A DNA stretch of 6,821 nucleotides, taken from Synergistota bacterium. Its GTDB lineage: Bacteria; Synergistota; JAGHAJ01. The DNA is taken from NCBI GenBank assembly GCA_021161545.1, contig JAGHAJ010000067.1, positions 1 through 6,821 of the forward strand, written 5' to 3'. The position numbers were made by a program, and so were the translations under genes. The notes beneath the pieces are model-generated. The model had not been told where the DNA came from. It searched no databases and worked only from the letters and a program-made list of their open reading frames with translations. Below, one piece after another: positions 1-2,512 of the stretch; within the stretch, counting starts at the first letter, position 1, and every line of letters starts with the position of its first letter.

Positions 1-461
1 CCCTCATGGAAAGTTCCCCTATTAGTAGCACCATCACTAAAGAATGCAACTGCAACTTGCTTACTACTCTTCACTTTACTTGCAAGGGCAGCACCCACAG
101 CAAGAGGAATACCCCCAGCTACAACACCATTTGCCCCAAGCATTCCAATAGAGAAATCCGCTATGTGCATAGAGCCACCCTTCCCATGACAATACCCAGT
201 AGTCTTACCAAAAAGCTCTGCCATCATAGGTTTCAGGTCAGCACCTTTCGCTATCGTGTGCCCGTGCCCTCTGTGTGTGCTTGTAATGTAATCATCCTTC
301 CTCAGATTTGCACACACTCCTGTAGCAATAGCCTCTTCACCTATATAAAGGTGAACAAAACCGGGTATTTCTCCATCCAGAAATAGCCTCTCTACCCTCT
401 TCTCAAAATGTCGTATTTTGAGCATAGTCCGAAAAAGTGACAGCAACACTTCCTTATCCAT
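1..461 (-). CDS. acoA: Acetoin/pyruvate dehydrogenase E1 component, alpha subunit (5' part; runs off the left edge)
   Basis: The visible 153 codons encode the N-terminal part of a thiamine-diphosphate-dependent E1 alpha subunit. Such a subunit pairs with E1 beta to decarboxylate a 2-oxo acid, or to cleave acetoin, and passes the acyl group to a lipoyl E2 in the cytoplasm. Numbered from the Met at 461, the family signatures are GFVHLYIGEEA (34-44), THRGHGH (62-68), MMAELFGKTTGYCHGKGGSM (79-98), LGANGVVAGGIP (108-119) and the diphosphate/Mg loop FSDGATNRGTFHE (141-153). The loop has SDG where GDG is usual. The HRGHGH and GYCHGKGGSMH forms match acetoin dehydrogenase alpha subunits best, and the AcoR-like gene upstream supports this, but a pyruvate dehydrogenase alpha subunit cannot be excluded. 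An in-frame ATG at 467 also exists. The ATG at 461 was chosen because the GGAGG lies 7 nt before it and only 1 nt before the other. About half of the usual length of roughly 320 residues is present, and E1 beta, E2 and E3 would be expected beyond the left edge. Confidence 0.9.
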   Translation of the reverse strand, partial: MDKEVLLSLFRTMLKIRHFEKRVERLFLDGEIPGFVHLYIGEEAIATGVCANLRKDDYITSTHRGHGHTIAKGADLKPMMAELFGKTTGYCHGKGGSMHIADFSIGMLGANGVVAGGIPLAVGAALASKVKSSKQVAVAFFSDGATNRGTFHE

Positions 462-468
462 CTCCATA

Positions 469-494: not shown

Positions 495-524
495 ATTTTA
501 CCAGAAAATGTGAACTTTGTCCAA
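495..524 (-). promoter_or_regulatory. Putative sigma70/sigmaA promoter with extended -10 for the acoA-like gene
   Basis: On the minus strand TTGGAC (524-519; or TGGACA at 523-518) is followed, with an 18 (or 17) nt spacer, by TAAAAT (500-495). A TG precedes the -10 by one base (TGGTAAAAT), which makes an extended -10. The expected transcription start is near 488, giving a leader of about 27 nt before the ATG at 461. No GG-N10-GC (-24/-12) sigma54 element was found in the gap. The call rests on consensus match by eye only. Confidence 0.5.
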
Positions 525-592: not shown

Positions 593-2512
593 TTATGTCG
601 TATATTGTACAATTTTATACTTTTTCATCTTGCTGTAAAGGGTGCTCCGTTGTATGCCGAGCAGCTTGGAGGCTCTGTAGATATTACCATCTGTAGCTTC
701 AAGTGCCTTTTTTATGAGAGCTATTTCCATCTCTCTCAACGGGATTACAGTATCAGATCCATTATCGGTAGAGTCGTATCCTTCACTAATTATGTAGGAT
801 GGCATCTCTTTAAGAGTTATTTCTTCACCTTCAGCCAGGAGAACTGCCCTTTCTATGACAGTTTCAAGCTCTCTAATGTTTCCTGGCCAGTTATACCTGA
901 GAAAGAGTTCCTTAACCTCCGGCGAGAGGCGATACTTCCTACCGGTTGCAGTTTCAATTCTCTCAAAGAGTCTATCCACTATAAGCGGAATATCTTCCTT
1001 ACGCTTACGCAGAGGAGGTATGCATATACTCAGGACGCTAAGGTAATAAAACAGGTCCACATTAAAGCTTCCTTTCTCCATTTCTTTTTTTAGGTCAACA
1101 TCTGTGGATGCTATTACTCGTATATCTATAGGTATAGAATCTATACTCCCTACTCTAAGAATTTGCTTCTTCTGAAGGGTGTAAAAAAGTCTTTCTTGTA
1201 AATCAAGAGGTAGTGCCACAATGTTATCAAGAAATAGTGTTCCACCGTTAGCAAGCTCAAGCTTTCCCGGTCTTCCTTCTCTATTATAGTCAGCAGCAGC
1301 ACCAAAGAGGTCTTGCTCTATTAGGCCTCTGGGCATAGCACCACAATTCACAGTAACGAAGGGTCCATCAGAGCGGTGGCTTGCATTGTGAATAGCCTGA
1401 GCAATAATTTCTTTACCCACACCCCTCGGACCAGAAAGCAGAACAGGGACATCAGAGTGTGCAGCGATCTTTATAAATCTCCTGATTTCCTTCACAAATT
1501 TATTGTCCCCTACTATATCATCAAACGTAAATATTGCTCTTGCACCTATGAAGTGAGTAACTAAATCCTGAACCCTGCTTATTTCTCTGAAGATATCAAC
1601 AACTGCTATAAGGTTATCATTCTCATCCTTAACGGGGACTGCCGTCTTTATAAAGTGCAACAATCCTCTTTTACTCTTGACTATAAACTCTTTATCAACA
1701 TATCCCTTCTTGGTCTCAAATACATCCAGAACAACAGGAATAAAATCAACTATATCAGCAACAAACTTTCCAACAGCTTCCTGAGGGGAAACCTTCAATA
1801 TTTCTCCTGCCTTACTGTTCATAGTCAAGACATTACCCTTATCGTCAAAGAGTATCAAACCATCCGAAATACCCTCTATAATAGCCCTCTGATACTTCTC
1901 AGATACGGTAAGTCTCTTCGATGCCAGTACAAATTGGATTCCATTTTCAACCGATTTTGCCAACGAATATAACCATCCAAGTTTATATACGTCAAAACCA
2001 TCTACTTTAGAGAAAGCAGAAACAACCGCTACTAACTTCCCATTCTCATCGTACACAGGACACGAAGCATCCCACGTATTTAAGAAGTCCACATGATAAT
2101 GCTGATATCCAATCACCGTATGTGGTACTCCATCAATAAGTGTTAATGATACAGAAGTGGTACCAACTGTATCCTCTTTCCAGTAAGCTCCACAGTGTAT
2201 GGGAATCCCTATGTCCACATCTCCAACCACAGAAAGTACAACACCATCTTTATCAAAAAGGATAAATTTCATCTCAGACTGCAAAATTAATCCTTTCTGC
2301 CTCCTAATAGAAGAGAGAAATGCAGATATCAGCTCCTTATTATCCTCTTTCTTGGCGCTAAGTTCAGTTATCGGGACCATGTAATCTCTCCTACTAAAAG
2401 GATCAAATCCCCTTTCCTTTAACCTCCTCCATGAATTTCTTATTTCAGATGGTAAGATATTACTGAGTATATCCCTGTTTATAAAGTCTTCCCATGCAGA
2501 TTTATAATCCAT
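593..2512 (-). CDS. AcoR-like GAF-PAS-AAA+-Fis regulator with a degenerate sigma54-activation domain
   Basis: This 639-residue protein has the layout of AcoR-type bEBPs. The N-terminal region contains IRNSWRRLKERGFDP (24-38), as in the LxxSWxRC...GxDP start of the family. A GAF-like sensor follows at about 60-170 (WKEDTVGTTS at 111-120), then a PAS domain at about 205-310, an AAA+ domain at about 330-560, and a Fis-type helix-turn-helix at about 594-634 (IYRASKLLGIQRSTLYSKMKKYKI region). Walker A is GPRGVGKE (361-368, Lys367 kept), and WPGNIREL (542-549) with the sensor II Arg is kept. The GAFTGA loop expected after FG403-404 is absent and the segment is shorter. Walker B is LFLDN (Asn430 in place of Glu). 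The two arginine-finger positions are Asn484 and Tyr490, and sensor I reads ASTD in place of the usual ATN. ATP hydrolysis and sigma54 contact are therefore unlikely. The start ATG has AAGGAG 7-8 nt upstream, overlapping the proS stop. A role in controlling the downstream dehydrogenase gene is inferred from family and position. Confidence 0.9.
   Translation of the reverse strand: MDYKSAWEDFINRDILSNILPSEIRNSWRRLKERGFDPFSRRDYMVPITELSAKKEDNKELISAFLSSIRRQKGLILQSEMKFILFDKDGVVLSVVGDVDIGIPIHCGAYWKEDTVGTTSVSLTLIDGVPHTVIGYQHYHVDFLNTWDASCPVYDENGKLVAVVSAFSKVDGFDVYKLGWLYSLAKSVENGIQFVLASKRLTVSEKYQRAIIEGISDGLILFDDKGNVLTMNSKAGEILKVSPQEAVGKFVADIVDFIPVVLDVFETKKGYVDKEFIVKSKRGLLHFIKTAVPVKDENDNLIAVVDIFREISRVQDLVTHFIGARAIFTFDDIVGDNKFVKEIRRFIKIAAHSDVPVLLSGPRGVGKEIIAQAIHNASHRSDGPFVTVNCGAMPRGLIEQDLFGAAADYNREGRPGKLELANGGTLFLDNIVALPLDLQERLFYTLQKKQILRVGSIDSIPIDIRVIASTDVDLKKEMEKGSFNVDLFYYLSVLSICIPPLRKRKEDIPLIVDRLFERIETATGRKYRLSPEVKELFLRYNWPGNIRELETVIERAVLLAEGEEITLKEMPSYIISEGYDSTDNGSDTVIPLREMEIALIKKALEATDGNIYRASKLLGIQRSTLYSKMKKYKIVQYTT

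Follow-up and report, generated by a model that had tools for sequence, protein, structure and literature searches.

The window, a stretch of 6,821 nucleotides that forms contig C105 of a 1.58 Mb Synergistota assembly (288 contigs, 82% complete), encodes a regulator with the fold of sigma-54 enhancer-binding proteins (EBPs), and it raises the question of how such a protein works once the parts that serve sigma-54 have gone. A few model bacteria have supplied the known EBPs without the GAFTGA motif, and proteins of this fold continue to be labeled 'sigma-54-dependent' by automatic annotation. The type of regulator is itself already known (DhaR; TyrR, HupR and VpsR also lack GAFTGA), and the window holds a clean new example, which has lost the residues for sigma-54 contact and for hydrolysis, retains the nucleotide-binding ones and comes from an assembly with no rpoN match. 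With it one could ask if GAFTGA-less regulators are gated by ATP binding alone, and if the GAFTGA-less state evolves repeatedly upon rpoN loss.

The regulator and its closest precedent

The regulator gene, DhaR/AcoR-like, occupies positions 593..2512 of the minus strand, where an open frame runs from 2512 to 593 and encodes 639 aa, intact as an earlier note on this DNA had described it. That note had also listed GAF-like, PAS, AAA+ and Fis-type helix-turn-helix (HTH) parts. Pfam recovered the last three: the PAS domain (residues 208-313; 1574..1891, minus strand), the AAA+ domain with its lid (residues 333-581; 770..1516, minus strand; Sigma54_activat and AAA_lid_14) and the HTH (residues 592-632; 617..739, minus strand; HTH_8 E 2.8e-14). 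The GAF-like sensor region (about residues 80-195; 1928..2275, minus strand) was sub-threshold in Pfam (GAF_2 E 0.034) and is seen in alignments with DhaR and with the DhaR sensor structure 4lrx, which matched residues 85-294 (phmmer, E 3e-11). The AAA+ domain scored 168.8 bits against PF00158 (Sigma54_activat). A structure model, built on an 11-sequence alignment, folded the AAA+ domain and the HTH with confidence and was weak over the sensor half. Judged by its sequence, the regulator is a descendant of sigma-54-type regulators, minus precisely those parts that sigma-54 work requires.

The top NCBIfam family was DhaR (E 7e-121), the closest precedent and one that the earlier note did not name. 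E. coli DhaR, also 639 aa long, is colinear with the regulator over 567 residues at 28% identity with no gap in L1, and shares the order GAF, PAS, AAA+ and Fis HTH. In both E. coli and Klebsiella, DhaR has an L1 segment of equal length, has lost the Walker B Glu and both arginine fingers, and retains the Walker A Lys. The two differ in that DhaR has also lost the Walker B Asp and the sensor II Arg, both retained in the window regulator, and in that the latter adjoins E1-alpha, E1-beta and TRAP genes, not dhaKLM.

PMC3162934 presents TyrR, DhaR and HupR as EBP homologues that have lost the sigma-54 interaction and depend on sigma-70, describes DhaR as a sigma-70-dependent activator, and gives VpsR and YplP as probable further EBPs without sigma-54 interaction; GAFTGA is altered in species without sigma-54 (PMC3162934). 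Rhodobacter NtrC, Caulobacter NtrC and VpsR are discussed in PMC10274813. On the evidence of these papers, TyrR, HupR, the two NtrC proteins and VpsR are GAFTGA-less EBP folds reported or inferred at sigma-70 promoters, and the window regulator resembles such sigma-70-acting proteins in lacking GAFTGA while retaining the DNA-binding domain. TyrR differs from it in keeping the Walker B Glu and both arginine fingers, and the Rhodobacter and Caulobacter NtrC proteins differ in being response regulators, not GAF/PAS one-component sensors.

Motif states of the AAA+ domain

Motif columns were scored against 38 diverse representative intact relatives, among which 35 columns reach a conservation of at least 95%. 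The sites on which the earlier note had built its case were found as it had read them. Walker A (GPRGVGKE, residues 361-368; 1409..1432, minus strand) retains Lys367. After FG403-404, the L1 segment (residues 404-418; 1259..1303, minus strand) lacks GAFTGA, reading AAADYNREGRPGKL versus, for example, HEKGAFTGAVARKRGRF in intact relatives, and the loop is shorter by 3-4 residues. In Walker B (TLFLDN, residues 425-430; 1223..1240, minus strand) Asn430 stands at the site of the catalytic Glu, and in the arginine-finger segment (1043..1063, minus strand), FNVDLFYYL versus FREDLYYRL in intact relatives, Asn484 and Tyr490 replace both Arg. A further invariant Arg, absent from the earlier list, is also gone (Arg444 to Tyr). 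Asp471 at sensor I, which that list did include, is indeed present but counts for little, as the residue at this site varies (N, H, K, C or A) among relatives competent for sigma-54. The Walker B Asp, the switch Asn389 and the sensor II Arg547 are all retained.

Sorted by function, the regulator loses 5/5 near-invariant columns of the sigma-54-loop/hydrolysis class, retains 7/7 of the nucleotide-binding class, and retains 20 of the remaining 23 (three lost). The contrast between 5/5 losses in the first class and 3/30 in all other columns (Fisher p 0.0002) is a measure of concentration and no blind test, because the classes come from knowledge of PspF and most of the sites had been named beforehand. 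In E. coli DhaR the same columns show losses of 5/5 in the loop/hydrolysis class, 2/7 in the nucleotide-binding class and 10/23 elsewhere. As far as the alignment tells, the pattern in the window regulator is one of focused loss, not decay.

A decaying gene, whose partner rpoN was lost and whose AAA+ domain now drifts under relaxed constraint, would fit the lack of an rpoN match in the assembly and the long branch on which the regulator sits in trees. Against it stand the full-length frame, the retention of the nucleotide-binding columns and of most others, the concentration of the losses in one functional class, the strong HTH_8 match, and a codon-position G+C that resembles that of the neighboring genes. 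We consider decay improbable. The selected repurposing that the earlier note had proposed instead would rest on the retained core.

Search for a sigma-54 partner, the putative target operon and the proposed mode of action

The earlier note had suggested a search for rpoN, and no match was found in the 82%-complete assembly with PF04552 or TIGR02395. Across the phylum these profiles matched in 15/61 and 42/185 genomes, respectively, and TIGR02395 picks up even divergent rpoN. With the genome only 82% complete, rpoN could be missing by chance. PF00158 gave one strong match in the genome, to the regulator gene itself, along with matches on contig C177 and a weak one on C170. The C177 match was rejected as a second EBP, being a ClpB-type protein, and the scan yielded no other clear EBP in the same incomplete assembly. 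Three other genomes of the phylum (G115, G146 and G151, each at least 92% complete) encode an EBP with intact GAFTGA and have no rpoN match, so the link between intact EBPs and rpoN is not strict in this phylum.

The genes dxr, rseP, ispG and proS lie upstream of the regulator on the same strand. Downstream, after 125 bases, begins the E1-alpha gene of a 2-oxoacid dehydrogenase, which the contig end cuts after its first half (1..467, minus strand). It continues on contig C10 (L103), which opens with the second half of the gene and whose end overlaps that of the window by 34 identical bases. Beyond E1-alpha, C10 carries E1-beta and then the TRAP genes DctP, DctQ and DctM, and the E1-alpha/E1-beta and TRAP transporter genes likely form an operon. 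Dehydrogenase E1 genes beside a regulator are the classic AcoR setting. Upstream of E1-alpha, a sigma-70-like promoter (TGGACA-17-TAAAAT with TG before the -10; 495..523, minus strand) was recognized by consensus match only, and it is only suggestive, since two such sites occur in positions 400-700 against 0.9 expected. No -24/-12 element of a sigma-54 promoter was matched upstream of E1-alpha. Seven matches to TGGCAC-N5-TTGC in the genome, versus none for the reversed pattern, were rejected as sigma-54 promoters, all lying inside long open frames. A candidate operator palindrome upstream of E1-alpha, a single 9-bp imperfect pair, was dropped (p 0.32 in shuffles).

Could the protein still activate the sigma-54 polymerase, its motif changes being tolerated? 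PspF E108Q offers some encouragement, as it remodels despite poor hydrolysis (PMC4132715). With GAFTGA absent, both arginine fingers gone, no rpoN found in the assembly and no -24/-12 element upstream of E1-alpha, we regard this as extremely improbable. The focused motif losses, together with the lack of an rpoN match or another clear EBP in the assembly, support a sigma-54-independent, non-hydrolysing protein, and the precedent of DhaR agrees with the earlier note's view of a putative pseudo-ATPase.

The regulator is thus probably, in our assessment, a one-component sensor of the EBP fold that does no sigma-54 work, does not hydrolyse ATP, binds it and controls the E1-alpha promoter. Its GAF-like and PAS domains would sense a metabolite or a partner protein. 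ATP, probably still bound given that the core residues are all retained, would be used for oligomer assembly, and the Fis-type HTH would bind DNA. No longer working with sigma-54 or hydrolysing ATP, the protein would control a sigma-70-type promoter of the E1-alpha/E1-beta/TRAP genes, comparable to DhaR and its own target. PspF R168A is ATPase-defective and forms a nucleotide-independent hexamer, and E108Q is a constitutive hexamer (PMC2745333, PMC4132715); by analogy, the window regulator may be a standing oligomer. Against this model, the incomplete genome showed no DhaK, no significant operator palindrome turned up upstream of E1-alpha, and Caulobacter NtrC, without GAFTGA, is still able to influence sigma-54 genes in mutants (PMC12421884).

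Our guess is that the regulator activates and does not repress. As a repressor, its oligomer would cover the E1-alpha promoter until a ligand releases it, with no contact to RNA polymerase. An intact DNA-binding domain beside a missing polymerase-contact loop would suit such a role, in E. coli both DhaR and TyrR carry the annotation of dual regulator, and Caulobacter NtrC both activates and represses at sigma-70 promoters (PMC12421884). The best-matching precedent, DhaR, is nevertheless, in PMC3162934, a sigma-70-dependent activator, and repression appears somewhat unlikely.

Common or separate loss

Searches of a collection of genome contigs, of 185 genomes of the phylum and of viral contigs gave no close orthologue: no match that spans most of the protein exceeded about 38% identity. 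The nearest intact full-length relatives come from Caballeronia (L085, 37.8% over 480 residues) and Bacteroidales (L042 and L043, 31-32%), and Pantoea plasmid proteins (L080 among the nearest) have intact machinery at 31-32% identity to the regulator. These AcoR-type sigma-54 regulators share its domain order at 31-38% identity but retain GAFTGA (or GSFTGA or GAFTGS), a DE Walker B and both arginine fingers. The earlier note had held that intact motifs in close orthologues would point to local decay or an assembly error; these searches gave no such orthologue, and the intact relatives found are all distant (about 30-38% identity).

A second degenerate GAF/PAS EBP of the phylum (L057, 1459-3477, minus strand; genome G164) has an ERHAFHGV loop, an FLND Walker B and FSRELYALL in the finger segment; it adjoins an rnfC-like gene, and its genome does have rpoN.

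A strict DhaR orthologue, with one common loss and not a separate one, would agree with the equal L1 length and with the AAA+ tree, where the window regulator, DhaR and L057 form one clade (96/89). Once the motif columns are removed, the tree no longer recovers this clade but does not reject it either (p-AU 0.23). The N-terminal domains place the window regulator with the intact L085 (94/94); constraining it with DhaR gave p-AU 0.053, and adding L057 gave 0.028. The regulator also scores 404.5 bits against NF008485 (DhaR), below the curated cut-off of 551, and DhaK (PF02733) was not found in the incomplete genome. Strict orthology seems unlikely. Tentatively, and with less assurance than the mode of action above, we propose a second, independent route to the DhaR state: in a lineage that had lost rpoN, the last EBP would have been retained as an ATP-binding, non-hydrolysing sensor controlling a 2-oxoacid dehydrogenase/TRAP operon by way of sigma-70, its hydrolysis and sigma-54-contact residues lost and its nucleotide-binding core intact.

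A third degenerate EBP of the phylum (L021, 193-2013, plus strand; genome G039) carries a PrpR_N sensor. Its L1 region is mostly deleted and its Walker B is gone; the gene lies upstream of a pdxA-like gene, in a genome without an rpoN match.

Many genomes of the phylum have an EBP beside a very divergent rpoN that falls below the TIGR02395 cut-off (L005-L018, L059-L077). EBPs beside divergent rpoN often read GAYTGA, and those in genomes with canonical rpoN mostly GAFTGA or GSFTGA; loop and rpoN type possibly co-vary in the phylum. Two rpoN matches (G019:C1:297192-298361 and G055:C41:3231-4373) contain one in-frame stop each, TAA and TAG, respectively.
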